A stretch of DNA of 60,512 nt from Lachnospiraceae bacterium (lineage in GTDB: Bacteria > Bacillota > Clostridia > Lachnospirales > Lachnospiraceae), in assembly GCA_024690825.1 (NCBI GenBank), contig JAILOK010000059.1, forward strand, positions 1 to 60,512, written 5' to 3'. The position numbers and the translations under genes are program-made. Shown piece after piece: positions 24,906-38,948 of the stretch; positions within the stretch are counted from its first letter, which is position 1, and each line of letters begins with the position of its first letter. The notes under the pieces are model-generated. The model saw only the letters and a list, made by a program, of their open reading frames with translations, did no database searches and was not told the origin of the DNA.

Positions 24906-25238
24906 AGATCTTCTCCTTTTTTTGAAATGTTTTTTGTTTATATTAAACCCGGAGCCCTATCTCCGAATTTAATTCAATTTATAAACAAAATATCACAATA
25001 AGTTCATAGATATTTTACATCATCATGTCAGTGATTGCAAACCCCAAATATTGTAAAAATGTATATATTTCCTACCATATTTAGAATATACCCCTTTTTT
25101 GCATCTTCGTGGCGAAATAGTAAATTTTATATTTTTTTTATACTTTCTTTATATTCTTTATATTCTACATATTTTATGTTATTATTCTCATTGTTTAACT
25201 TGATTCATTCTTTAAAGGAAAGGACTATTCCGGACACT
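24906..25238. other. AT-rich intergenic region between divergent pilus and GT-C genes
   Basis: A 333-base region. It holds the pilus operon promoter (25012-25040) and a leader of about 100 bases with a small hairpin, CGGAG/CTCCG around 24946-24962. To the right, toward the GT-C pair, the sequence is very AT-rich with several T-runs; no convincing plus-strand promoter could be picked. A longer frame upstream of 25239 exists, but its residues do not align with the paralogous protein, so I treat it as non-coding. No known riboswitch pattern was recognised. Confidence 0.6.
25012..25040 (-). promoter_or_regulatory. promoter of type IV pilus operon
   Basis: TTGCAA, 17 bases, TAAAAT on the minus strand, giving a transcript start near 25005 and a leader of about 100 bases before pilA. 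Confidence 0.65.
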
Positions 25239-26969
25239 ATGGATCCCTTACAAAATACACCGAGAAAAAAAATGATACTTATGGTTTTTATTATCATATT
25301 TCTTCAACTAGCATTATGCACTTGGTACATGGCATGCCAGAAAACCGGATTTTTTGCTGATGATCTATACAGTTACGGCTATGCTAACTCTCCAGGCTGT
25401 ATTTCCCCTCTTGAAACTGGTGAAAAACTTTATACCATCCGCTGGATACCCGGAAAAGCCCTCCACGAGTACCTCACTGTTTCTTCCGATGAGCGTTTTA
25501 CCTACGGAAGAATAGTGGAAACATTGGAAAGAGATGCTCATCCCCCTCTTTTCTATTTTATTCTTCATTCAATCTGCTCTATGACTCCCGATAAGTTTTC
25601 CGTGTGGAGTGCTTTCATCATAAATGCTTTGGGATTAACTCTTCTCCAGATGTATCTGTACCGACTATGTCTTTTCATCGGAAATAATCGCTTTATTGCG
25701 CTCCTGATATTGATATTTTTTGGTTTTTCCTCTGCAACCATCAATATGATGGTACTTCTCCGAATGTATATTCTTGCAACAGGATTTACAGTTGCATTTT
25801 CCTATTATGCACTGAAATACCTGTATGATATTTATAGTGACAAAATCATTGATGAAAATCTACTGTTGTCCTTTGTCTTTTTATATCTGTCATCCATGAC
25901 CGTTTATCTGTCCGTACTCTTTGCATTTCTTTTGACTCTGATCATATGTATAATGCTTTTGATCAGAAAAAAAATTAAAAGAATGTTCTGTTTTGGATTT
26001 TGCATGCTTTTTTCAATCGGAGTAATGTGTCTAAGTTTCCCCGTTGTTTTCACGCAGCTCTTAGGTGACAAGGTTGCTATAAAGGGGGCTGATCTGTTTC
26101 CATACATGTTGCAGATCCGAACGAGTATTTATGTGATTTCAAACGGTCTTTTCGGTATTAATACGCCCATATATCCCACTATGATACCGTTTTATACTGT
26201 AACCTCCCTTATAGGCTTAGGAATTCTGTATGCCATAATCCACTTCGTTTTTAGAAATGATACCTGGTTTATGGATTTTATAAAAAAATTAAGGACTTCT
26301 GTCGTATTTCTTTTTCAAAAATCCCTTAAATACATCCGACCTCTTCTTCCCTTTGTCATCATAAGTATTACTTTTGTTCTGCTTTTTTCAAAAGAACTCA
26401 AAATATATTACTACAAGGAACTGGCAATGAGATATTATTACATAATTACACCGTTTATAGCCATGATCATTTTACTGCTTCTTTTGAAACTGATCCGTCC
26501 AACGTTTGCGCGTTTCGGAATTATTGCAATCCTTACAGTTACTTCACTGATTTTTGGAAGCAAATGTTATCTTCAGCAACAGTTGGAAAGCGCAAAGATA
26601 GAACCTATAACAAGAGGTTGTGATGTTATTGTTATTGAAACAGACCCGCCAACATTCATGTATCACATCATGGATCTGATGGGATGTAAAAGTTTCCTAT
26701 TTGCCACAACTACCGACGTTTTCGACGGAAACGTGGATGACTCCTTATTGGAAAAAGCAAAGGAAAGTGATAATATTCTGCTTATGGTCGATCAGACTGC
26801 GGCAAACGAAAATTCCATGACTTCAAAGACTTATAAGTATGATGGGACCGAGGCTATTACATCCAAGGCTGAAAATGACGTCGTAAATCATTTCCAGTCC
26901 ATACCCGGATTTGAGCACACAGAACATGTAGGAACATATTACGGAAGCTATATATACAGGCTTAAATAA
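25239..26969 (+). CDS. GT-C-fold membrane glycosyltransferase-like protein (copy 1)
   Basis: A 576-residue polytopic membrane protein. I chose ATG at 25239 (MDPLQNTPRKKM) because it aligns with the start of the next, paralogous protein; AAAGGAAAGGA lies about 14 bases upstream. After the first helix comes FFADDLYSYGYANS, with the acidic pair typical of GT-C transferases that use polyprenyl-phosphate sugars, then DAHPPLFYF before the second helix. About ten more membrane helices follow, then an extracytoplasmic C-terminal domain. Family is that of PMT/ArnT-like transferases; donor and acceptor unknown. Base composition is clearly more AT-rich than neighbours, suggesting acquisition from elsewhere. 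Its position, divergent from pilA, makes pilin glycosylation a reasonable hypothesis. Confidence 0.7.
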   Translation: MDPLQNTPRKKMILMVFIIIFLQLALCTWYMACQKTGFFADDLYSYGYANSPGCISPLETGEKLYTIRWIPGKALHEYLTVSSDERFTYGRIVETLERDAHPPLFYFILHSICSMTPDKFSVWSAFIINALGLTLLQMYLYRLCLFIGNNRFIALLILIFFGFSSATINMMVLLRMYILATGFTVAFSYYALKYLYDIYSDKIIDENLLLSFVFLYLSSMTVYLSVLFAFLLTLIICIMLLIRKKIKRMFCFGFCMLFSIGVMCLSFPVVFTQLLGDKVAIKGADLFPYMLQIRTSIYVISNGLFGINTPIYPTMIPFYTVTSLIGLGILYAIIHFVFRNDTWFMDFIKKLRTSVVFLFQKSLKYIRPLLPFVIISITFVLLFSKELKIYYYKELAMRYYYIITPFIAMIILLLLLKLIRPTFARFGIIAILTVTSLIFGSKCYLQQQLESAKIEPITRGCDVIVIETDPPTFMYHIMDLMGCKSFLFATTTDVFDGNVDDSLLEKAKESDNILLMVDQTAANENSMTSKTYKYDGTEAITSKAENDVVNHFQSIPGFEHTEHVGTYYGSYIYRLK

Positions 26970-28693
26970 TGAAAACAATATCCTTAACATCCTGCTCCAG
27001 AAAAAAAATGGTAATATTGGTGATAACAATTGCCCTGCTTCAATTCATTCTGGTAATCCTTGAGTTTCATTTCATGAAAAAAGGCTTTGCCGGAGATGAG
27101 GTTTACAGTTATGCAACCGCAAATTCAAGTGAAGCCATGTCGCCATTGGTAGACATGGACGGGACATTACACATAAATGAATGGCTTACTCCCGGTCGAC
27201 TTTTTCAGGCTGTTGTTGTTTCCGAAGATGAAGTGTTTAACTATGCACATATCAATGAAATTCTTAGGTATGATGCTCATCCCCCTCTGTATTTTTATAT
27301 CCTTCATTTCCTCTGTTCATTTTTCATTAATAGTTTTTCCTGGATTCCATCAATCATCATTAATTCATTATCGATCTTTGTCGGTCAGATCTTTTTTTAC
27401 AGACTGTTTTTACTTCTTTCAGAGAACCGTTTGCGATCTCTCCTTGCGATGATTTTCTTCGGCAGCACTACGGCCATTATAAATTTAATGACTTTTGCAA
27501 GAAATTATACCCTGCAGACTTCGCTGACCCTGATCTTTTTGTACTATATATTTAAAGCCATGAGACAGCATTCACTTAACGAAAAAACGTCTAGAAGCAT
27601 TCTTTTTGCCGCCCTGTTTCTGTATTTAGCTTCTCTTACCCAATACCTCTCCGTTCTTTTCGGTTTTTTTGTCACGTTATCGATTTGTATTTATTATCTT
27701 TTCAAAAAAGATATACGATTTCTTCTGAATATCGGTCTTTCCATGACCGGGGCGATAGTTCTGATGATTATGTCTTTTCACCACGTCATTAACCAGCTTA
27801 TGTCAGACCAGACTGCCATGGAAAACGCCACGGACTTTCCTTATCCTCTCGAAATAAGAATTTCTATCCATATACTCTTTGATGAAATATTTGGTATTAA
27901 AACTCCTGTATCACCAACAATGCTTTTTTTCTGGATATTTTGGGGATTCGCCACAGTTTTTGTCATCTGTCTGATACTCTGGTTTCTCTTCAGGGCAGAT
28001 GAATGGTTTATATCTCTGCATTCTAAACTCCGCAAAAATTTGAACCATGTTATATTTAAACTGAAAAAACAGCGAGTGGTTCAATATTTTATATTACTAT
28101 TTTCGGTGACCATACTTATCCTTATCATCTCGTATAAATTCAAAATGTATTTTTACCATCCCAATTCGAACCGCTATCTCTTTTTCCTTTACCCATATGC
28201 AGCTATCATTTTCCTCGTGCCGGTTTTTGCATTATTCAAATTTAATCTGATCAATGCTTTGTTGATCATAGGTCTGTCGTGTTCATCTCTTATCTATGGA
28301 ACAAAAACAAATATCGGTCCTTCGGAGCTGCCGATGAGAGAAGCCATAGAAACTTTCACTGATTCCGATGTGCTGGTATTCACACCGGATCATTATACAG
28401 CTAATGCAAGTACCTTTTACCTTGAAAAATGCAATCAGGTTTTTTACACGACCAAAGGAACATTCTTTGATAACAAAGATACGTTCAAAATCGGCCTGTC
28501 AAAAAACAAGCCACTATATCTGTTATATTTCTGGCCAGCATACAACAATCAAAACGCGAAATCAGAATTGTTTGATTTGTTAAAGGTCCTTCAGGAAAAT
28601 GGCATAACCACAATGGATGTTGAAGGCAAAAATAATCATGGTGCACAACTCATTGCCGGTGTTGGAGGGCATGTCCTCCTCCGGCTGAGATGA
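26969..28693 (+). CDS. GT-C-fold membrane glycosyltransferase-like protein (copy 2)
   Basis: A 574-residue paralogue of the preceding protein, with matching landmarks: RKKMVILVI at the start, GFAGDEVYSYATANS, then RYDAHPPLYFYILHF, and equivalent helices throughout. The ATG shares its A with the TAA of copy 1 (TAATG), so the two are translated together and could form a heterodimer. It carries the same AT-rich composition. The gene meets the convergent YidC-sulfatase gene with no spacing at all. Predicted role, as for copy 1, is transfer of a lipid-linked sugar on the outer face of the membrane. Confidence 0.7.
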   Translation: MKTISLTSCSRKKMVILVITIALLQFILVILEFHFMKKGFAGDEVYSYATANSSEAMSPLVDMDGTLHINEWLTPGRLFQAVVVSEDEVFNYAHINEILRYDAHPPLYFYILHFLCSFFINSFSWIPSIIINSLSIFVGQIFFYRLFLLLSENRLRSLLAMIFFGSTTAIINLMTFARNYTLQTSLTLIFLYYIFKAMRQHSLNEKTSRSILFAALFLYLASLTQYLSVLFGFFVTLSICIYYLFKKDIRFLLNIGLSMTGAIVLMIMSFHHVINQLMSDQTAMENATDFPYPLEIRISIHILFDEIFGIKTPVSPTMLFFWIFWGFATVFVICLILWFLFRADEWFISLHSKLRKNLNHVIFKLKKQRVVQYFILLFSVTILILIISYKFKMYFYHPNSNRYLFFLYPYAAIIFLVPVFALFKFNLINALLIIGLSCSSLIYGTKTNIGPSELPMREAIETFTDSDVLVFTPDHYTANASTFYLEKCNQVFYTTKGTFFDNKDTFKIGLSKNKPLYLLYFWPAYNNQNAKSELFDLLKVLQENGITTMDVEGKNNHGAQLIAGVGGHVLLRLR

Positions 28694-31357
28694 TTACCTT
28701 GATACCTTCTTCCAACTGTTTTTATCAAACATATCCCCTTTCACCCTGTAAAATACTGTCCGGTCATCATACAGGGTATTGCCCTTTGGCAGGACAAATT
28801 CACCGTTTTCCCATACGATCTGACCTGTATCACAGATAAGCAGCCCGTCCTTAGAGTACTTGTCATCCATACTGATCGCATTTTTCGTAAAAGGATTTAC
28901 GGGATCTTCTATGAGATCTTTTACGGCAAGTGAAGGAACATCCGCATTTGTCATGAATTCCTCAGAGATCCTGAAGCCTTTGGAACCAAAATCCTTCACC
29001 ATCAAAAGCGGATTATACGCTTCCACATCCAGTCCGTCCCCAAACAGCATATCCGGAAAGTCCCCGTTAGGATAACCGTGATCCGACACCACTATTATCC
29101 TGGTATTATCCCAGACCCCGTTTTCCCTTAAATAATCAAACCATTCCGTTACACGCAAAATGGCACATATATTGGGATGATAATTCGGGTTTTCCACAAA
29201 CTCGTGATCATGCTCTGCCGCATATTTTCTGTTCATGGATTCATCCACGAAATAAGGAACATAATCCGGCTGGCTTAAGATCATGGTATTGTGAGGTGTT
29301 TCATTATCCAGCAGAAGGACCGAGTCTTTACCGTCATCATTTATCTCTGTAAGCCCTTTTAGATTTTCTATGGCATTATAAGCATTATAAAATGTGTATT
29401 TTACAACATCTTTTTTGAGCGACCAGTAAAAACCTTCGTCATAAACAAATGATCTGTATGCATACGGTACGCATCTGAAAATACTGTAATAAAGAAAATT
29501 TCTCTTCAGATTCTTTGCCGACTGTTCGGCATTGGAGGATTTTAATCCGTAATCCGATATGAGCATCGCATTGATCTGAGGATAATCTTCATATATTGAC
29601 AGATCGCTGTACCATTTATAACCTGCATAGGGCGGATCCACAACCGTAACCTCAAATCCTTCATCAGAAAAAACCCGCGGAAGCATCAGCAGGGCCTCCG
29701 TCTGTTTTTCCTGCAGGGTCTGGCCGCTCCTTTCGTTCAGCCTTTCAGGAGTATAATCATACCCTCCGAAAAGAGCCTGGGAACCGTTGTAGGTCGATCC
29801 GGCAAATGAAAGAGTATTAGGGTAATATGTAAAGCCGTCCAGCTTTTCCTTCAGTTCCGGTCTCTCCTGCAGCATATACGGAATATAGGCGTTGATCGCC
29901 CTGTCCAGCATCAGAACTATCACATTTTTCCCGGAGCGGGTAAGCGGAAGCTTATTCGCCTTTATCTCAGTATCAACACTCCTGTAATACTCTGCTGTCT
30001 TTACCTTTGTCAGTGCTATGTCCTTTATCGAAAAGAAACTGACCGTTGCCAGCATGATCATCAGGGTAAACAGCAGGATCTTCCTCTTTCTTGTAAGGAC
30101 GAAATAGATCATTATGGGGATGATAAAGGATATCATCATACTGAGTGTGTCATAGATCTCCGGATATGAGGTAAAGTCCAGAACCTCCAGATCCGATGAG
30201 ATCTGCCCTATACCCTGATCCAGAAAAAAACCGTGAATGACAGCCAGAACCGACGAAGAAGAGGATATTATTTCCAATATGAATCTTCCCCTGTCCTTCA
30301 GCAGGAAAAATACCAGCGGTATCCATATCATAAACAGACCCGCTGCAACATACAGGGTATCCGTCATGTAGCTTAAGGGGTCCGCCACCACTCCTGCCCT
30401 GACAAATTCGATCGGGGACGAAAAAACAGCCGATGCAGGCATCCAGACTCCTATCAGGACCGTAAGCACAGCCTGGGAGAATAAAAACACGGCAGTACTG
30501 CTTTTTGCTTCATTATTACGTTCTCTGTATGCCAGAATAAAAAGCGGAATCTGAAACAGGATCAAAAGAGCCGTAAATATGGTTTCCCCGGGATACTTTG
30601 AATAATTGATACCAAAGAGAACAAAGAGCACCGCTGCGATCAGGATACCCGCCAGCGAGATCCTGATCCCTTTCGAATACCGGGGATATTTTTCGATCAT
30701 CCCGACGACGATATTTTTGCATAATGAAAACAGATTGTTACAGGTCCAGTATATGACAAGACCGGCAGGACTGTTGTAGAGCAGGACCATAAAGATAAGT
30801 GCAAGAGCGGAGATCTTTATCATCTCCATAAGATCTCTTCCCTTGGTATACAGAAGACCTGATGCGATATTGATAAGTGTCATGACGACCGGAAGTATAT
30901 TTATGCTCAATCCGCCTATATGCACAAGCGCATCCGGCATCCCCAGATTTCCGATGAAAAGAAAATCACTTTCCTTAAGGATCTCCAGATTGCTCAGATA
31001 ATGATAAGCCGCCATGAAAAACGGTATCTGTATGAGAATACTCAGTGATCCCCTGAGGCTGTCTGCCGGCCTGTATCTTTTCTCCCTGTAATAAGCCTGC
31101 ATGATAAAAAACCTTTCATCCTTGGCAAAGGTTTTTTTGATATGGCTTATCCATCCCTCCATACCCTTCTGTTTCTTTTTTTCTGCCTTCTGTATCTCTT
31201 CCGCTCTCAGATAAAGAGGCAGGGTGACAAGACATACGAAAAGACTCACAAGGATCAGTACAGCCCCTGCATTGTTGACTGCCCTGTAAAAATAAACAAA
31301 TACCAGCTCTATGATGTATTCTATGGGTAACATGATCAATCTGTATAAGAAATCCAT
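28694..31357 (-). CDS. YidC/Oxa1 insertase fused to sulfatase-fold domain
   Basis: An 887-residue protein. Residues 1-225 are a YidC/Oxa1-type domain: the opening LPIEYIIELVFVYFYRAVNN, a Lys/Glu-rich cytosolic loop (52-105), RGSLSILIQIPFFMAAYHYLSN, and the final YNSPAGLVIYWTCNNLFSL are all diagnostic. Residues 230-445 add about seven further membrane helices. Residues 475-870 are an alkaline phosphatase/sulfatase-fold domain, with Asp485 (VLMLDRA), a Ser521-Thr522 candidate nucleophile (AGSTYNGS) and Asp759-His760 (VVSDHG) in the metal-binding order. Relatives of this second domain include lipoteichoic acid synthase and phosphoethanolamine transferases. The gene closes an operon with tagD and a TagB/F-like gene nine bases away, so a glycerol-phosphate or similar transfer to a surface polymer is likely. 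The fusion is unusual; domain calls are firm, function is inferred. Confidence 0.85.
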   Translation of the reverse strand: MDFLYRLIMLPIEYIIELVFVYFYRAVNNAGAVLILVSLFVCLVTLPLYLRAEEIQKAEKKKQKGMEGWISHIKKTFAKDERFFIMQAYYREKRYRPADSLRGSLSILIQIPFFMAAYHYLSNLEILKESDFLFIGNLGMPDALVHIGGLSINILPVVMTLINIASGLLYTKGRDLMEMIKISALALIFMVLLYNSPAGLVIYWTCNNLFSLCKNIVVGMIEKYPRYSKGIRISLAGILIAAVLFVLFGINYSKYPGETIFTALLILFQIPLFILAYRERNNEAKSSTAVFLFSQAVLTVLIGVWMPASAVFSSPIEFVRAGVVADPLSYMTDTLYVAAGLFMIWIPLVFFLLKDRGRFILEIISSSSSVLAVIHGFFLDQGIGQISSDLEVLDFTSYPEIYDTLSMMISFIIPIMIYFVLTRKRKILLFTLMIMLATVSFFSIKDIALTKVKTAEYYRSVDTEIKANKLPLTRSGKNVIVLMLDRAINAYIPYMLQERPELKEKLDGFTYYPNTLSFAGSTYNGSQALFGGYDYTPERLNERSGQTLQEKQTEALLMLPRVFSDEGFEVTVVDPPYAGYKWYSDLSIYEDYPQINAMLISDYGLKSSNAEQSAKNLKRNFLYYSIFRCVPYAYRSFVYDEGFYWSLKKDVVKYTFYNAYNAIENLKGLTEINDDGKDSVLLLDNETPHNTMILSQPDYVPYFVDESMNRKYAAEHDHEFVENPNYHPNICAILRVTEWFDYLRENGVWDNTRIIVVSDHGYPNGDFPDMLFGDGLDVEAYNPLLMVKDFGSKGFRISEEFMTNADVPSLAVKDLIEDPVNPFTKNAISMDDKYSKDGLLICDTGQIVWENGEFVLPKGNTLYDDRTVFYRVKGDMFDKNSWKKVSR

Positions 31358-31365
31358 CCTAACCT

Positions 31366-32598
31366 CTATGCCGCTCCTGTAATTTCCCTGTATTTGCCGA
31401 TCATATATTCGGATATCCTCCGGGCAGAATCTCCGCGTACGCTCCAGACCTGGCTTCTGGCAGCATCTCTGCCCGCAGAATAGTTGTTGTTCTGCAGAAC
31501 TTCTTCTATCAGATCCCCTATCCCGGCCAGATCTTCCTCTTTTAACTGAACCCCCAGACCCTTCAGCGCCGACAGCACATATGGATCTTCTCCTGTCCAG
31601 GCTATATCATACGGAGCAGGATCAAAAGAAGTATCAGCATATATCACAGGCTTATCAAAAACAAGGGTGTAGTCATAAACCACCCCGGAAAAGTCGCTGA
31701 TCAGTATATCCGTCCTGCACAGGACATCAAAGTTGTCGTTATCAAAATTCCACTCTATCCTTTCACTGTCAGGATGATCCTTCATTAATCCATCTATCAT
31801 TTCCCTTTCACTGATCAGTGACTGGGGATGAGGTCTGATGATGATATGATACTTTGTTTCCAGTAAGGCATCTATTATCCTTCCTCCAAATCTTGAAAAG
31901 ATCCCGCTCTTTCCCCAGGTGGGTGCCAAAAGCACTGTCTTTTCCCTGCTTTCCGGCTTCTTTGCTGCTTCTTTTCTTTTCAGCATCTCGTCCATATAGG
32001 TACACCCGCATATCTGCAGTTCTTTTTGTCTGATCTCCCGCATCTCTTCGAGCAGCCTTATATACTTCACAGCAAGCGGTCCCGTTGTCAGCACGGCATC
32101 ATAAAAATCTATGCCGAACATCCTGTATCCCACAGCCTGGCTCGCTCCATGAAAAATATGAACATACCAGTTCACGTCTTTCGATCTTTTCCATTGATAA
32201 ACATCAAGTCCCGGCGTGGTGGAAAGACAGATCCCTGCCTTCATCTGATTAAGTCTTACAAACCCTTTGTTACCCTCTCCGATGAACCTGCATTTCACCG
32301 TATTGTATTCTTTGTCCAGCCCCGGATCATCCTCGGATGCCGTCCAGTATTCAAGCTGTAACCCTTTTTTTTCAAAATAATCGCATATCGGTTCAAAGGT
32401 ATTCCAATAACGCTTATCATCCGAGTAGATGACATACGGGATCTTTTCCAGTCCCGGTTTTTCCCCTCTTCCGCCTTTGATATAAAACTTCACCTTATAA
32501 TAAATGACTCTGCAGAAATATATCAGAGTCCCAAAAATTCCCATGAACAGGGCAAAGAGCATACTTCCCGTTCCGGGATCGATATATAAAAGTATCAT
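31366..32598 (-). CDS. CDP-glycerol glycerophosphotransferase-like (TagB/TagF family)
   Basis: A 410-residue protein with an N-terminal membrane helix introduced by YIDPGTGSMLFALFMG, a start seen in several membrane-attached relatives. The catalytic part follows the TagB/TagF pattern: HGASQAVGYR, a central VLLAPTWGKSG, IIRPHPQS and finally ILISDFSGVVYDY, with the His and Asp/Ser residues that bind CDP-glycerol. These enzymes move glycerol phosphate from CDP-glycerol to a lipid-linked or growing polymer at the inner face of the membrane. tagD, 15 bases upstream, would supply the donor. Whether it primes or polymerises cannot be told. Confidence 0.87.
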   Translation of the reverse strand: MILLYIDPGTGSMLFALFMGIFGTLIYFCRVIYYKVKFYIKGGRGEKPGLEKIPYVIYSDDKRYWNTFEPICDYFEKKGLQLEYWTASEDDPGLDKEYNTVKCRFIGEGNKGFVRLNQMKAGICLSTTPGLDVYQWKRSKDVNWYVHIFHGASQAVGYRMFGIDFYDAVLTTGPLAVKYIRLLEEMREIRQKELQICGCTYMDEMLKRKEAAKKPESREKTVLLAPTWGKSGIFSRFGGRIIDALLETKYHIIIRPHPQSLISEREMIDGLMKDHPDSERIEWNFDNDNFDVLCRTDILISDFSGVVYDYTLVFDKPVIYADTSFDPAPYDIAWTGEDPYVLSALKGLGVQLKEEDLAGIGDLIEEVLQNNNYSAGRDAARSQVWSVRGDSARRISEYMIGKYREITGAA

Positions 32599-32613: not shown

Positions 32614-33024
32614 TTATTTAAGTGAGCGCACCTGGCTCTTTATGTCTGTAGCACTGATCCCTTGCGTTCTTTTAAGCCTCACTACATCTTTATTATTTTT
32701 TTTACACCAATCGATGACCCTGTCAAACCTTTCCCCAACATGATCCTCTCCCAGTGCCAGGATATCAAAATCTATCTTTTCCAGGGTTTCCGGTACAACC
32801 GCATCATATACTATTACCTCATCTACTATCCTCAGGGCTTTCAGGATCTCCACTCTTTCTTCCGTGGAATACAAAACCTCCGCATCGGGCTTATACTGTT
32901 TTATAAATCTTCCGTCCTGTACTGCGACTATCAGGTAGCCGGCATATTTTTTGCATTGCTCGAACAGTCTTAAGTGACCTATGTGAAAATAATCATACAC
33001 ACCAAAGGTTAGTATTTTTTGCAT
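32614..33024 (-). CDS. tagD: glycerol-3-phosphate cytidylyltransferase
   Basis: A 136-residue enzyme of the cytidylyltransferase family making CDP-glycerol from CTP and glycerol 3-phosphate. It has the H14-I-G-H17 nucleotide-binding motif and the second signature RTQGISATDI (119-128). Length and the VYDYFHIGHLRL opening match TagD rather than the longer ethanolamine or choline enzymes, though a related alcohol-phosphate substrate is not excluded. It lies between the methyltransferase (three bases) and the TagB/F-like gene, so the operon makes and uses its own CDP-glycerol. Start ATG at 33024 with GAGAGTGAT upstream. Confidence 0.9.
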   Translation of the reverse strand: MQKILTFGVYDYFHIGHLRLFEQCKKYAGYLIVAVQDGRFIKQYKPDAEVLYSTEERVEILKALRIVDEVIVYDAVVPETLEKIDFDILALGEDHVGERFDRVIDWCKKNNKDVVRLKRTQGISATDIKSQVRSLK

Positions 33025-33780: not shown

Positions 33781-35484
33781 TCAAATATCAAACACATAGA
33801 GTTTTCCGTCCGATGAACTGACATAATCGGTTCCGAGGTCTTTATAAAACGATATGATAGCTTTTCCTTTATCCGAATAAAAGTCCGTATCTATATATAC
33901 CTTTTTGAATCCTGCTTTCTTTATCCCCTCAAGGAAAGCTTTGCTCATCCCGTCATCAACATACAGTTCCTTTGCCCTGATATCTCTTCCTGCGATGCCT
34001 CCGAAACTCCATCTGATATCCTTTGTGTACAGATATCCTATGAAAGGTTTGTACGGGCCCGCCTCCGGATAATCATAGTATGGCAGCTGATAGATCATGT
34101 CATTATCACTCATGGCCTGAACCTTTTCAAAGAATTCGGAATAAACGCTTTCCTGCTGAACATCCGCTGTCTGTTTGTAATCGTAGTACGGAAGTCTCAC
34201 CTGATCGTTAAGTCCGAACAGCAGAAGAGCTATCATACAGAGTATGCTCAAGTCCCTGTTCTTTTTCTTCAGCCTGTCCATGAAGAATATAACCACTATG
34301 ATGCACATGCAGTTTATCAGTATGGATGATCTGTTATAGCAGCGGATCATCGGTGTCACAAGATAATTGAATATCTCACCGAAACCGCCTACGGCCGATG
34401 TCAGCAAAAGCATGATCATGGAAAGCGAAAGAAAATCCATCAATGCCCAGTTCTTCGAGGATGGATCCGTTTTTCTGATAAAGGAATAGATCATGCACAC
34501 GCACAGAATGATCAGTCCTGCCGAGCCCACAATTCCTATCCCGGATGAAACATTTTCATTTATTATATATCCGGTACTGTTATAGGCCTTTGCGATATTC
34601 GACAGAAACGGAACTCTCGAATAATTTACCGGAACAAAAAGCTGGATGATCTTTAATCCCCACACCTCCTGCTCAGCAGGTGACCTGGTATAAAGGTATA
34701 CATTTGTGTTTTTCCCGTTCTGCAGGTTAAAGATAAAGGATGGTATCCTTGCGATCAGAAAACCAAGGACAGCAAAGCCTGCCGGCCACAGTTTCTTCAA
34801 CGCATCCTTAATCCCGGCATCCCTGATGCATCTGACAATAAAAGCAATCCCCCATATCATCGCGCCAAAGAAGAGGAAATAGGGACAGCCGAGTCCGACA
34901 AGAAGTCCGGCTGTGATCAGCTCGGCCTTTTCCTTCTTTTTGTTTTCGTAGACGATAAATCCCGTGATATAAAGAGACATCAGAAATACAAGCGGAACAG
35001 TCAGGGCGTTTGAGATCGCAAGATGCTCGAGCCATCTGTAAAAGTGAAACGGGGCTGCAGAAAAAAGAGTTGCGCCGGCAAAGGTCTGAAACCAGTCAAA
35101 GCCCATCCTGCGCAGCAGCCAGGCCATAGTCCACGCCGTTGTGATAAAGGTCAGCATCAGAACATAATAAAGCATCCGGGGTGTGCTTGGATGAAACAAA
35201 GTGTTTACAACAAGCATCTCGAAAGCCAGAACCGGATCCACTCCGGGAACATCGATCATGTCCGATCTATCATCCGGCGCTCCTATGCGGGGATTAAAAT
35301 ATATACCGTTCCAGCCGTTTTCCTGGACGCTTTTCATTATCATGGACATCGATGTAACATCGTTATCAAGCGAAGGAAATATATCATAGTTCTGGTTCTT
35401 TCCTCCCAGGGAAAGATGAACTATCACCACCATCAACACGGCAAGCCCGATAAAAAATCCAGCCTTCTTTGCTTTGCTTTTCAT
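33781..35484 (-). CDS. YfhO-like GT-C membrane glycosyltransferase
   Basis: A 567-residue membrane protein with some twelve helices. After the first helix comes an extracytoplasmic loop with DIFPSLDNDVTSMSM, the acidic pair expected in GT-C folds, and later HFYRWLEHLAISNAL. The C-terminal ~110 residues are a soluble domain. It resembles YfhO-type and related transferases that place sugars from polyprenyl-phosphate donors on polymers outside the membrane. AAAGGAG precedes the ATG at 35484. With GtrA and the GtrB-like transferase in the same operon it plausibly forms a three-part decoration system. Confidence 0.72.
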   Translation of the reverse strand: MKSKAKKAGFFIGLAVLMVVIVHLSLGGKNQNYDIFPSLDNDVTSMSMIMKSVQENGWNGIYFNPRIGAPDDRSDMIDVPGVDPVLAFEMLVVNTLFHPSTPRMLYYVLMLTFITTAWTMAWLLRRMGFDWFQTFAGATLFSAAPFHFYRWLEHLAISNALTVPLVFLMSLYITGFIVYENKKKEKAELITAGLLVGLGCPYFLFFGAMIWGIAFIVRCIRDAGIKDALKKLWPAGFAVLGFLIARIPSFIFNLQNGKNTNVYLYTRSPAEQEVWGLKIIQLFVPVNYSRVPFLSNIAKAYNSTGYIINENVSSGIGIVGSAGLIILCVCMIYSFIRKTDPSSKNWALMDFLSLSMIMLLLTSAVGGFGEIFNYLVTPMIRCYNRSSILINCMCIIVVIFFMDRLKKKNRDLSILCMIALLLFGLNDQVRLPYYDYKQTADVQQESVYSEFFEKVQAMSDNDMIYQLPYYDYPEAGPYKPFIGYLYTKDIRWSFGGIAGRDIRAKELYVDDGMSKAFLEGIKKAGFKKVYIDTDFYSDKGKAIISFYKDLGTDYVSSSDGKLYVFDI

Positions 35485-35507
35485 GATCTGATTCTCCTTT
35501 ATACTCC

Positions 35508-35933
35508 CTATCTTCTGAATGCCCAGTATTTATTCAAAATGAAATTCAACGGAACACTGATACACAGATTTATTACCGGAGCTATGTACTTTGATATCCC
35601 GAATATGTTTATCCAGACATAGGATAAAACATTGCTTACAAGGATTATGGTGAAACCATAGACCAGAAATGTCTTTATCAGGATCTTTCCCTTATTCTCA
35701 TCGGGATCCTTTTTTTCATTGAAAACAAAACGGTCATTTAAGAAAAATGACCATATCGTTCCCGTGATGAAACCGACAACATTACCTGCAATATAATCCC
35801 ATGACACACCGGTCTTTGACAGCAGATATATCGTCAGTATATTAAAAAGATAGCTTACCGCAGTATTGGTCAGACCGACGATCCCGAACTTAATAAACTG
35901 TATCAGGATATGTCTTGTTTTTTCCAGGTTCAA
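35508..35933 (-). CDS. GtrA-like flippase
   Basis: A small four-helix GtrA-family protein thought to flip undecaprenyl-phosphate sugars across the membrane. The core FIKFGIVGLTNTAVSYLFN and the C-terminal LNFILNKYWAFRR are typical. I propose the TTG at 35933 as start (141 residues) because it overlaps the TGA of the upstream transferase (TTGA) and has GGAAAGG nine bases ahead; GTG at 35939 is an alternative. A longer frame from ATG 36032 would overlap the upstream gene by about 100 bases and add residues foreign to the family. Confidence 0.82.
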   Translation of the reverse strand: MNLEKTRHILIQFIKFGIVGLTNTAVSYLFNILTIYLLSKTGVSWDYIAGNVVGFITGTIWSFFLNDRFVFNEKKDPDENKGKILIKTFLVYGFTIILVSNVLSYVWINIFGISKYIAPVINLCISVPLNFILNKYWAFRR

Positions 35934-36775
35934 TTGCACAGCCCTTTCCTTATCCGGATCAAAACCGGGAATGATCTTAAAAATACAAGCCTGCAGTAAT
36001 CCTTTATTGTCAGCATGATCTTCATATAACATTCATCAAACGTATTCATGTCAAAATAACCCATGGCCTTTATCCGCCGGATCAGCTTTGCATCATCCTC
36101 CATGATCTTTTTCAGTTTCATCCTGCTTGTGATATTGTCCGATGACAGCCGGTAATCCGTCAAAGCATCCTTCAGATAGGCTACTCTGCCCAAGGATGCG
36201 ATCTTCATCCAGAGTTCCCAGTCTGTCGTATAATGAAGATCGGTAGAAAATGATCCTGTTTTTTCCGTGCATTCTTTTCGAAACAGTATGTTTGAAGGTT
36301 CCCCGAATACATTGCCTTCACGAAAAGATCTTCTCCCGTAGTCATATCCTTTGATGATCACATTTCTGTCGTATCTTTTCCTGTTCATAATAAAATCATC
36401 GTTTTCATCCACCAGTGCCGTGGCGCTTGTTACCATCACAACATCGGGAAATCTTTCCATGACGGAGACTTTTTTTCTGATACAGTCCGGTCTGATCGTA
36501 TCGTCGGCGCAGAGAAAATGTATGTATTCTCCGGTAGATTTTTTTATGCATTCATTCCAGTTTCCTGCCATTCCGAGGTTTGAATCGTTTTGCAGAAATA
36601 CGATCCTTTCGTCTTTTATGCTTTTCACGACCTCTTTGGTTCCGTCCTCCGAGCAATTATCGATAACAAGGATCTCTATGTTGTCATATGTCTGCGCCGC
36701 CGCAGACAGTATGGCTCTTTTTATTGTTTTTTCTCCGTTATATACCGGTATGCAGATCGATACTTTTTTTCCCAT
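35930..36775 (-). CDS. family 2 glycosyltransferase
   Basis: A 281-residue cytosolic GT-A transferase. It opens with VSICIPVYNGEKTIKRAI, has ILVIDNCSEDGT, and the metal site appears as FLCADDTI where family 2 normally has a DxD-type motif. GEPSNILFRKEC and TTDWELWMKIA are typical acceptor-side blocks. The nucleotide sugar and acceptor are not predictable. It starts two bases before the end of the GtrB-like gene's spacing and overlaps the GtrA gene by four bases, so it is part of a tightly packed operon. Confidence 0.9.
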   Translation of the reverse strand: MGKKVSICIPVYNGEKTIKRAILSAAAQTYDNIEILVIDNCSEDGTKEVVKSIKDERIVFLQNDSNLGMAGNWNECIKKSTGEYIHFLCADDTIRPDCIRKKVSVMERFPDVVMVTSATALVDENDDFIMNRKRYDRNVIIKGYDYGRRSFREGNVFGEPSNILFRKECTEKTGSFSTDLHYTTDWELWMKIASLGRVAYLKDALTDYRLSSDNITSRMKLKKIMEDDAKLIRRIKAMGYFDMNTFDECYMKIMLTIKDYCRLVFLRSFPVLIRIRKGLCN

Positions 36776-36776
36776 T

Positions 36777-37760
36777 TCAGTCCATCCTGTCGTAGGTTCT
36801 CTCGCTGATTATGTACCTCGGACGATGCTTCGTCTCCAGATATATCTTTCCGATATACTCTCCTATGACTCCTATGCTCAGCAGCTGTATGCCGCCAAGC
36901 AGACACAATATGATCGTCATGCTGGCCCAGCCGGCTATCGTGTTTCCTTTGAGTGCACCGACGAATATCCAGATCACACCGAAAAGACTCGCAAAGAATA
37001 CCAGCAGACCTATGAGTGATATTATCCTCATGGGGCGTATGCTGAGACTGGTTATCCCGTCAAAAGCCAGTCCCATCATCTTTCCCAGAGAATAATGGGA
37101 TCGGCCTGCCACACGCTCATGTCTTTCGTAATACACTGTCCCGCTTTCAAATCCGACAAGCGGGATAAGCCCCCTTAAGAAAAGATTTACTTCTCCGAAA
37201 TTGGCGAATTCCTCAAGTACCCTGTTTGAGATGAGTCTGTAATCGGCATGATTATATATGACATCTCCGCCTATGAGTCTGATGAACCTGTAGAAGCACT
37301 GGGCTGTGACACGCTTAAAAAACGAATCTGTTTTTCTGGCATTCCTGACGCCGTATACAACCTCGCATCCCCTATCATATGCATCTATCATCTCTTCCAT
37401 TGCTTCTATGCTGTCCTGCCCGTCGCAGTCTATGGTTATGGTTACATCACACCGGTCCTTTGCCTCCATCAGTCCGGCAAGAAGGGCATTCTGATGTCCC
37501 CTGTTCCTGCTCTGGGAAATCCCGATAAAGTGACTGTCCTTTTCAGACAATTCCTTTATTATCTGCCAGGTTTTATCGGTGCTGCCATCATTGACATACA
37601 TGATCCTGCTGTCGCTGCTGATTTTTTTCTTTTCTATCAATTGCTGAAGTTCTTTTAAGAAAGAATCAGATGTGACAGGAAGTACCTGCTCTTCGTTATA
37701 GCAGGGCACTATTATATAAAGAACAGTTTCTTTTTTATTATTCCAAGCTGTATTCTCCAC
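36777..37760 (-). CDS. GtrB/DPM1-like polyprenyl-phosphate glycosyltransferase
   Basis: A family 2 transferase with a C-terminal pair of membrane helices, as in GtrB/ArnC. Blocks seen: LYIIVPCYNEEQVLP, IMYVNDGSTDKTW, NRGHQNALLAG, and TIDCDGQDS as the metal-binding site. It would load a sugar onto undecaprenyl phosphate for GtrA to flip. I take GTG at 37760 as start (327 residues) because AGAGGG lies five bases upstream; TTG at 37787 would add nine residues. It follows the epimerase gene by 67 bases. Confidence 0.88.
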   Translation of the reverse strand: MENTAWNNKKETVLYIIVPCYNEEQVLPVTSDSFLKELQQLIEKKKISSDSRIMYVNDGSTDKTWQIIKELSEKDSHFIGISQSRNRGHQNALLAGLMEAKDRCDVTITIDCDGQDSIEAMEEMIDAYDRGCEVVYGVRNARKTDSFFKRVTAQCFYRFIRLIGGDVIYNHADYRLISNRVLEEFANFGEVNLFLRGLIPLVGFESGTVYYERHERVAGRSHYSLGKMMGLAFDGITSLSIRPMRIISLIGLLVFFASLFGVIWIFVGALKGNTIAGWASMTIILCLLGGIQLLSIGVIGEYIGKIYLETKHRPRYIISERTYDRMD

Positions 37761-37827
37761 TGTATCCCTCTGTATGATAATTTCCAAGACATAAGCATTT
37801 TACGGCAATTATGGATGTAAATCAAAT

Positions 37828-38742
37828 TCAGGCCTGCTCCTGTTTCCGGATCCATTCGGCTGTTCTTCTGATCCCTTCCTTAAAGGAGACCTTTTGTTTA
37901 TATCCGGTATCTCTTTCAACTGCATGGATGTCAAACTGACCATAGTCCGTTCCATCACCGTTAAACGGGATCTCTCCTATTCCAAGATCAGCATCTTTAT
38001 CAACGACATTTCCCATGACGATGATAAATTCCTTTAACGGGGCAGGTTTTTTGCTTCCGATATAATAAGTCCTGTTCCTTATTCCCTTTTCACCTATCAG
38101 GATGAATTCCTCTATCGCATCATCGATATAAATGAAATCATAGGTCTGTTCACCGGGTGAAAAGGAACAGTGTTCCTTTTTCAGGAGTTTTCTTATTGTT
38201 GTATTCACAAATCTCGGACTGATCTCTCCCGGGCCGTAGATATTTGAGATGATGCCTCTGATATAATCAACACCCATGTTGTCCGCAAGTATCCTTGCCA
38301 TCTGATCTGCGCAGTTTTTTGCGGAAGAGTATATGGAGTTTTTCCCGATATTTTCTTCAGACCGCATGTCTTTTTCTATTTCATACTCCATGATGCTGGC
38401 AGCATTCACAAACCGTCTGCAGCCGACCCTTGAACAGATCTCCACAGCTTTGCATGTATTTTCGATATTCTTTAACTGTACTGCAAAGTCGCCTCTTAGG
38501 GTTCCGGCGCTTCCCGTCCAGCCAAAATGAAAAAAACAGTCGATCTGTCTGTCATTAACGCTTTCAGTAATAAAGGACAGATTCCCGTCATCATGTATTG
38601 TGCTTATATCTTTGATGTCTTTTATCCGGTCATCATGATCTCCCCTTACTACTGCCGTGACACTGATCCCTTTTTCCGACAGTCTCCTGCAAAGACTGCT
38701 TCCGAGAAAACCGTTTGCTCCTGTCACTATCGCGCTTTTCAT
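37828..38742 (-). CDS. NAD-dependent sugar epimerase/dehydratase
   Basis: A 304-residue extended short-chain dehydrogenase. Nucleotide-binding TGANGFLG is at residues 7-14, the catalytic Ser116 (NAASIMEY) and Tyr138-x3-Lys142 (YSSAK) are intact, and YGPGE follows. Such enzymes modify nucleotide sugars; the particular sugar is not evident. As first gene of the surface glycopolymer operon it probably makes a precursor for the transferases downstream. Start ATG at 38742, preceded by AGAAAGG. Confidence 0.88.
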   Translation of the reverse strand: MKSAIVTGANGFLGSSLCRRLSEKGISVTAVVRGDHDDRIKDIKDISTIHDDGNLSFITESVNDRQIDCFFHFGWTGSAGTLRGDFAVQLKNIENTCKAVEICSRVGCRRFVNAASIMEYEIEKDMRSEENIGKNSIYSSAKNCADQMARILADNMGVDYIRGIISNIYGPGEISPRFVNTTIRKLLKKEHCSFSPGEQTYDFIYIDDAIEEFILIGEKGIRNRTYYIGSKKPAPLKEFIIVMGNVVDKDADLGIGEIPFNGDGTDYGQFDIHAVERDTGYKQKVSFKEGIRRTAEWIRKQEQA

Positions 38743-38888: not shown

Positions 38889-38896
38889 ACATAACA

Positions 38897-38927
38897 AAAC
38901 GACCATGTCTGTATGACATGGCCGTTT
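38897..38927 (-). terminator. terminator after the 212-residue orphan gene
   Basis: Reading the minus strand, a 12-13 base-pair stem (AAACGGCCATGTC / GACATGGTCGTTT) is followed by TTTTGTTATGTTT. It lies 22 bases past the stop codon of the orphan gene and insulates it from the glycopolymer operon promoter just beyond. Confidence 0.85.
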
Positions 38928-38948
38928 CAAGAAATATACTCATTTCTG

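Follow-up and report, generated by a model that had tools for sequence, protein, structure and literature searches.

A YidC-alkaline phosphatase fusion gene

The window analysed here is the whole stretch of 60,512 nucleotides from a Lachnospiraceae bacterium (contig JAILOK010000059.1), and we describe its gene at 28694-31357 together with the gene cluster to which it belongs. From the letters alone, an earlier note had described this gene as one uninterrupted frame of 887 codons that joins a YidC/Oxa1-type domain, seven extra helices and a domain of the alkaline phosphatase (AlkP) fold. The frame is borne out: on the minus strand a single open reading frame (ORF) of 887 codons runs from an ATG, and the plus strand across the same interval is rich in stop codons. 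Positions of all features are collected in Table 1.

Pfam assigns residues 31-218 to 60KD_IMP (YidC, PF02096; E 5.8e-20, 72.3 bits, cut-off 35) and residues 740-766 to Sulfatase (PF00884, E 1.8e-6); on TIGR03592 the protein scores 79.7, slightly under the cut-off of 84.3. A profile of 86 sequences, comprising the window protein and 85 relatives, matched solved YidC chains with an E-value of about 6e-12 and YidC2 with 5.5e-9, the alignment spanning the YidC core with the cytosolic hairpin kept. The AlphaFold2 model built from the same 86 sequences (mean pLDDT 87.7, pTM 0.84) shows a YidC-like helix order, seven more helices at residues 229-465 and then the C-terminal domain. The 50 Foldseek matches listed for this model are AlkP-superfamily chains including LtaS, LtaP, MCR-1, EptA and YejM/PbgA as well as sulfatases and phosphonate monoester hydrolases, LtaS 2w5r matching at E 2.7e-7 and MCR-1 9nww at E 2.8e-7. 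Whole-model TM-scores are low (about 0.2-0.28, query-normalised) because the AlkP domain accounts for just half of the model. None of the 50 matches listed is a YidC, so the assignment of the N-terminal domain, which agrees with the earlier note, rests on sequence profiles and the helix pattern.

The seven extra helices are present in the model; they are better read as an optional hairpin followed by five helices of the enzyme. The hairpin (229-276) is shortened or absent in two paralogues of the same genome (L009, L010). Hydropathy of two stand-alone AlkPs (L139, L204) gives five helices at similar spacing ahead of the catalytic domain, one of the two having a sixth hydrophobic peak further on. 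On the model, the fusion is therefore best read as a YidC domain followed by an entire enzyme of the LtaS/EptA type. Model and hydropathy concur on five membrane helices with the AlkP domain predicted outside, and since loss of the hairpin removes two helices, the domain would still lie outside in its absence.

Table 1. Features of the window on which this analysis draws
Feature	Position	Strand	Basis
YidC-AlkP fusion gene, 887 aa	28694..31357	-	ATG-started open frame; Pfam; AlphaFold2 model
YidC/Oxa1 domain, residues 1-222	30692..31357	-	PF02096, solved-YidC alignment, model helices
Optional two-helix hairpin, residues 229-276	30530..30673	-	Model helices, alignment gaps, hydropathy
Five membrane helices, residues 288-465	29963..30496	-	Model helices; hydropathy vs stand-alone AlkPs L139, L204
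AlkP/LtaS-fold catalytic domain, residues 466-887, predicted extracellular	28697..29962	-	Foldseek, PF00884
Asp485, presumed metal ligand	29903..29905	-	86/86 fusions, 9/9 aligned stand-alone AlkPs
Thr522, presumed nucleophile	29792..29794	-	86/86 fusions, 9/9 aligned stand-alone AlkPs
His689, presumed active-site His	29291..29293	-	86/86 fusions, 9/9 aligned stand-alone AlkPs
Asp759-His760, presumed metal ligands	29078..29083	-	86/86 fusions, 9/9 aligned stand-alone AlkPs
Cys42, aligned with groove Arg of solved YidC	31232..31234	-	Alignment to YidC structures
c1, TagB/F-like (PF04464) GT-B-fold transferase, one N-terminal membrane helix, 410 aa	31366..32598	-	Pfam, model, Foldseek
YIDPGTG motif, c1 residues 5-11, membrane-helix start	32566..32586	-	c1 alignment
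TagD/RfaE-II-like cytidylyltransferase, 136 aa, presumed head-group activation	32614..33024	-	PF01467 E 8.8e-18
S-adenosylmethionine (SAM) methyltransferase, 246 aa	33028..33768	-	PF13649 E 2.2e-11
Rest of same-strand run	33781..38742	-	ORF list, Pfam
Terminator-like hairpin upstream of run	38895..38929	-	15-pair stem, consensus match only

The fusion as a protein family

A scan of GTDB contigs gave at least 507 confirmed matches, possibly including ordinary YidCs. The best 80 of the 507 led to 77 loci, which together with five loci of the window's own genome form a set of 82 that is not a random sample; it includes two loci (L029, L098) whose fusions were masked in ORF calling by a longer antisense ORF. 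Fusion ORFs were found in 80 of the 82: 107 are 800 aa or longer, with 9 shorter pieces besides, and 106 of the 107 are closed by a stop codon. Fusions also occur in records not labelled as metagenome-assembled genomes, for example Butyrivibrio sp. INlla21 and MB2005. A sequencing-error join of two genes, which the earlier note had raised against its own proposal, and likewise an assembly artefact are excluded by these 107 ORFs in 80 loci, and the YidC-AlkP fusion is confirmed as a genuine protein family.

The window's genome carries five fusions, the one in the window sharing 35-39% identity with the other four, and one unfused YidC in a stretch with mnmE-, jag- and rnpA-like genes (named by eye). 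Tandem copies are common (also in L023, L061, L065 and L084); at L060 66-20591 eight fusion ORFs or pieces stand head to tail with a single TagB/F-like gene in the middle of the array. The family is spread patchily, with fusions in at least 9 of 291 genomes of the class and at least 3 of 398 genomes of the phylum (one of them outside the class), both lower bounds because scoring covered no more than the top 2 or 3 candidates of each genome. Copies on single contigs labelled Treponema (L043) and Coriobacteriaceae (L076) reflect either spread or binning error. A search for plasmid relatives gave 15 records, all of which cover less than 80% of the query, and the 10 matches listed hit the YidC part only.

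A TagB/F-like partner with a YIDP helix

The gene next to the fusion, here called c1, belongs to the TagB/F family: it scores above the PF04464 cut-off (E 3.6e-12; 46.4 bits, cut-off 22.1) and its model (pLDDT 88.1) has a TagF-like fold, the best Foldseek match being TagF 3l7k (E 1e-13). Its profile also matches Cps3D, Bcs3 and TarL. The protein begins with a membrane helix whose YIDPGTG motif is invariant in all 40 aligned c1 sequences and recurs in each of the 63 c1 proteins that were clustered; one variant (G307) reads YIDPATG. Unusually long TagB/F-like frames were seen at L041 12705-14870 (721 aa) and near position 30729 of G036:C43 (734 aa), the usual length being 410-430 aa.

We found c1 in 61 of 80 loci, in 58 of them on the same strand and no more than 100 bp from the fusion (49 upstream, 9 downstream), and in 16 loci the nearest pair overlaps by 4 nt. 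A locus-wide profile search detected a TagB/F-like gene in 62 of the 82 loci and a tagD-like gene in 2; on the earlier note's question whether such fusions always neighbour tagD/tagF, the tagF side holds for most loci and a general link with tagD is not supported. Among the 291 class genomes the close c1 subfamily (E <1e-170) occurs in 8, all within the nine that bear a fusion, and by genus both occur in the same 4 of 181 genera. Six of the nine belong to one genus, so that independent events are fewer than these counts. Two genomes with weaker c1 matches, G383 and G286, turned out to encode proteins in which the domains are swapped, as did a further match in G022.

A domain swap places YidC on the TagB/F-like enzyme

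Elsewhere in the Clostridia, chiefly among Lachnospiraceae, it is the TagB/F-like enzyme that carries the YidC domain, and the AlkP is a separate protein; this is the main new finding of the analysis. In L139, L142, L143 and L144 Pfam detects YidC at E 8e-31 to 6e-34 and, behind it in the same protein, Glyphos_transf at E 3e-9 to 2e-15. Matches to the YidC-TagB/F form at E 1e-60 or better were obtained in 20 of 397 genomes of the family, among them one split over two contigs (G502), one without a start (G537) and two that contain a stop. We examined 22 swapped loci from 20 genomes, namely 19 of these 20 and G383, which belongs to another family. Strong matches to genes for head groups (see below) were present in 17 of the 22; the other five had weak nucleotidyltransferase matches (L195, L202), a weak fragment (L139) or none (L144, L206). 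In 12 of the 22 a stand-alone AlkP gene lies on the same strand within 2 kb.

The YIDP helix shifts with the swap: in the window form it starts the TagB/F-like protein, and in the swapped form it is mostly a separate small protein. It was found on the same strand in 20 of the 22 swapped loci (not in L193 and L208), in 17 within frames of 67-140 codons, in L205 and L207 in longer open stretches and in L144 at the N-terminus of the AlkP. The search pattern was written after examples had been seen; its three hits in 649 kb of background read F[IL]DP. For two of the small YIDP proteins no convincing Pfam or NCBIfam model was obtained, the best being an inovirus coat model for one of them (E 2.6e-5). 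Three module types, TagB/F-like enzyme, YidC and AlkP, are thus encoded together in two arrangements, and this reshuffling within a similar gene context is a sign that the modules act together.

A tree of 55 YidC domains splits the AlkP-fused and the TagB/F-fused forms into two clades. Between these falls one unfused YidC (L147, whose genome has 4% contamination), and the other unfused YidCs group with the TagB/F-fused clade. YidC was perhaps recruited twice, once per partner; a single origin of the fused YidCs was not rejected by the approximately unbiased test (p 0.105).

Active site and YidC groove

Fold and the presence of the metal and nucleophile residues place the C-terminal domain in the AlkP superfamily. 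Asp485 and Asp759-His760, which the earlier note had singled out as metal residues, are invariant in all 86 aligned fusions; for the stand-alone AlkPs, nine of the 13 found were aligned. LtaS and EptA have Glu as first metal ligand, and sulfatases have Asp. Of the LtaS residue set, Thr522, Asp759 and His760 are present in the fusion and the Glu is not.

The earlier note had proposed to check whether the YidC groove keeps its conserved polar residue. Where the aligned YidC structures have their groove Arg, all 86 aligned fusions carry an uncharged residue instead (N 75, S 7, Q 2, C 1, T 1). Among 22 unfused YidCs sampled the position reads K 11, Y 5, R 3 and N 3, and the unfused YidC of the window's genome (L011 6119-7435) has Tyr. 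As 8 of the 22 lack a positive residue, groove charge is no strict criterion for YidC, and loss of the Arg as proof of lost insertase function is weakened, because unfused YidCs of these Clostridia vary as well.

These residues bear on the idea that the YidC domain still inserts a membrane protein of the pathway, such as the YIDP-helix protein or an acceptor, and that the AlkP modifies that protein. The retained fold and cytosolic hairpin would suit an insertase, and the small YIDP proteins resemble, by eye, short single-helix insertase clients. The fusions, however, carry no positive groove residue, with the reservation just given for unfused YidCs; the TagB/F-fused form keeps the groove Lys in 17 of 17. 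No constant acceptor protein appears among the recurrent neighbour clusters either. Altogether we regard a surviving insertase role as very improbable.

Head-group genes beside the fusions

Genes whose products would synthesise or activate a head group such as phosphocholine or aminoethylphosphonate were found in 29 of the 82 fusion loci and in none of 40 background stretches (649 kb) from fusion-carrying genomes, 10 of which are short (under 13 kb); the hidden Markov models used were built from the query loci and favour these over the background. The kinds are choline kinase with a LicC-like protein, phosphoenolpyruvate (PEP) mutase with phosphonopyruvate decarboxylase, nucleotidyltransferase-aminotransferase fusions and TagD-like proteins. 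Where a pathway was recognised among 79 loci, it is of choline type at 13, linked to an aminotransferase at 7, of phosphonate type at 5 and represented by TagD only at 1. The earlier view of a polymer made by TagD and TagF is not supported as a general rule. Contexts vary even between copies of one genome: besides the TagD-like gene of the window, L008 has an aminotransferase, L007 a BCCT transporter with LicD-like and nucleotidyltransferase genes, and L009 none. L010 has PEP mutase, a thiamine pyrophosphate-type decarboxylase, a class V aminotransferase and a nucleotidyltransferase, as for aminoethylphosphonate. A 1511-aa protein without Pfam match and with a signal-like start by eye (L010 3192-7727) adjoins this phosphonate-type fusion and is a possible acceptor.

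Several neighbours are themselves composite. Winged helix, LicC-like nucleotidyltransferase and choline kinase are joined in one protein at L044 4588-6387 and L205 8679-10439, that is beside both arrangements. At L026 6961-8766 and L142 1714-3576 a nucleotidyltransferase is fused to a class I/II aminotransferase, which we take to be CobD-like; this suggests that a single protein may make and activate an amino-alcohol phosphate. We also asked whether fusion clades are each specific to one head group, and rejected this because clustering is weak: choline changes 5 times on the tree (9.0 when shuffled), and all groups together 9 times (11.6), with 26 of 79 rows labelled.

At the window itself the earlier note had seen a CDP-glycerol (cytidine diphosphate-glycerol) operon, a label that is less secure than the fusion. 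The TagD-like gene and c1 are indeed there; on TIGR01518 (glycerol-3-phosphate cytidylyltransferase) the TagD-like protein reaches 61.8 bits and stays below the cut-off of 165.4. A glycerol-type head group is possible at this locus. The set of methyltransferase, TagD-like protein, c1 and fusion recurs in another genome (G052, L146) at 34, 66, 49 and 27% identity, the methyltransferase pair (L146 3823-4614) aligning over 251 aa. Such a set, with PF04464 and an LtaS-like fold beside a TagD-like gene, would suit the idea that TagB/F and AlkP jointly build a poly(glycerol-phosphate)-like chain. Against a polymer synthase stand the rarity of TagD-like genes across the 82 loci and the chemistry of the other head groups. 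A chain can only grow from a free hydroxyl, which phosphocholine and aminoethylphosphonate lack; they cannot be chained through phosphodiesters, so terminal decoration is more likely at those loci. We consider chain synthesis improbable.

The rest of the same-strand run encodes a 567-aa protein without Pfam match above cut-off, a GtrA protein, two GT2 glycosyltransferases and an NAD-dependent epimerase-like protein (named by eye). On the other side of the fusion, at 25035-28693, two long hydrophobic proteins without Pfam match run towards it, the second ending at 28693 immediately beside the fusion's stop codon.

A candidate machine for surface decoration

We favor, with a probability of about 0.5, the reading that fusion and neighbours form a modular transmembrane machine for adding a small phospho- or phosphono-alcohol group to a surface molecule as a decoration, the fusion being the machine's outer half. 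The modules are seen in the sequences, and the roles proposed for them are deduced from family and fold. In the cytosol the cytidylyltransferase would activate the head group as CDP-X or CMP-X (cytidine monophosphate-X), a chemistry suggested by the neighbour families. The TagB/F-like GT-B enzyme, held at the membrane by the YIDP helix, would load the head group onto a membrane carrier, and the groove of the YidC domain would let the polar head reach the outer leaflet. Judging by fold and active site, the AlkP domain may then transfer it to a glycan or protein outside, in the way that LtaS and EptA use lipid donors. The carrier, the direction, flipping by YidC and the acceptor are all predictions.

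Passage of a loaded lipid head group through YidC is plausible, as YidC of E. coli, Oxa1 and Get1 are reported to scramble lipids in vitro (PMC10491306). The YidC domain is predicted to end in the cytosol and an odd number of further helices follows in the AlkP form; the TagB/F-like enzyme is thus predicted inside and the AlkP outside. Taken together, the two predicted topologies put YidC in the middle, with the loader in the cytosol and the transferase outside. The earlier note had proposed that the YidC half was reused as a membrane scaffold or lipid/polymer conduit. Reuse of a YidC fold in a surface phospho-group pathway is supported by its fusion to AlkP or, in other genomes, to a TagB/F-like enzyme in clusters of the same kind. 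The machine is further favoured by the conserved fusion with its invariant catalytic residues, which the stand-alone AlkPs share, by the close linkage and co-occurrence of c1, by the head-group genes and by the domain swap.

Several observations weigh against such a machine. No recognised head-group gene is present in 53 of the 82 fusion loci, three of the 29 positive ones (L028, L030, L063) depend on a nucleotidyltransferase match alone, and the head-group type tracks the fusion tree weakly. No TagB/F-like gene lies near three of the five fusions of the window's genome, and G389 carries a fusion and no c1 at E 1e-20. Of the swapped loci, 10 of 22 have no AlkP gene in the stretch covered, two of them (L202, L208) being cut by contig ends. 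Finally, the first metal ligand is the sulfatase-like Asp485 instead of the Glu of LtaS and EptA, so hydrolysis is possible.

A different division of labour can be imagined: the TagB/F-like enzyme would act like LicD or TagB and decorate, on the cytosolic side, a glycan linked to lipid, YidC would be only an anchor or scaffold, and the AlkP would work independently, either as an LtaS/EptA-type enzyme using ordinary phospholipids or as a remodelling hydrolase. Besides the Asp ligand and the matches to phosphonate monoester hydrolases and sulfatases, LicD in 4 of the 82 fusion loci fits this account. So does the finding that AlkP relatives without YidC are common; in G135 two (L140, L141) are on contigs apart from the YidC-TagB/F gene. 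A mere anchor, however, would hardly be fused to either of two partners on predicted opposite sides of the membrane, and the two stand-alone AlkPs tested carry about five membrane helices of their own, which makes an extra anchor needless. We hold this division of labour to be unlikely.

Relation to known systems

The outer half resembles the lipoteichoic acid synthases LtaS and LtaP (2w5r, 4uoo, 4uop) in its AlkP fold after a predicted five-helix membrane domain, the Thr and the Asp-His pair. It differs by the YidC domain in front, by Asp in place of Glu and by neighbours that are of choline or phosphonate type more often than of glycerol type. The phosphoethanolamine transferases EptA and MCR (5fgn, 9nww) share the AlkP fold, and their five-helix layout and small phospho-head group match what is predicted here. 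They take the group from phosphatidylethanolamine, whereas the fusion has a TagB/F-like neighbour and often a cytidylyltransferase. c1 has the GT-B fold of TagF, TarL and Cps3D (PF04464). Unlike these, it has a YIDPGTG helix and a length of about 410-430 aa, or else occurs as a fusion with YidC, and many of its loci suggest decoration rather than polymerisation. YidC/Oxa1 insertases have the same N-terminal fold and hairpin; the fusion departs from them in being joined to enzymes and in the uncharged groove of the AlkP form, and a separate unfused YidC is present in the genome.

In overall logic the proposed machine would parallel three-component transmembrane glycosylation of the GtcA type (PMC7389260, PMC8035078), which likewise combines cytosolic loading, passage through the membrane and transfer outside. 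That system handles sugars with GtrA/GtcA and a GT-C enzyme, whereas phospho-groups, YidC and AlkP would take their places here. The window's run itself includes GtrA and GT2 genes. Pnt phosphonate tailoring (PMC6697681) involves PepM, decarboxylase and cytidylyltransferase genes like those beside several of our loci. Its later steps are termed enigmatic in the abstract of that paper, and YidC, TagF and sulfatase do not occur in the main text.

Tentatively, and as a reading that is less likely than not, we go further and propose that in gut and rumen Clostridia the YidC fold has turned from an insertase into a dedicated passage for lipid-linked head groups. The machine in question would consist of YIDP helix, TagB/F-like loader, YidC and AlkP transferase, and would serve phosphocholine, aminoethylphosphonate and other groups. 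It would be, as far as we know, the first surface-modifying enzyme with a YidC domain built into it. In a literature search that left most subscription papers outside, no title or abstract among those listed described the YidC-AlkP architecture, which public domain databases may list uncommented.

Phosphocholine and phosphonate decorations are relevant to host recognition and phage binding. Because the domain swap occurs naturally, genetics could show cleanly at which step YidC acts. If the proposal is true, the machine would be the route to the cell surface of gut Clostridia for phosphocholine and phosphonate head groups once these have been activated.

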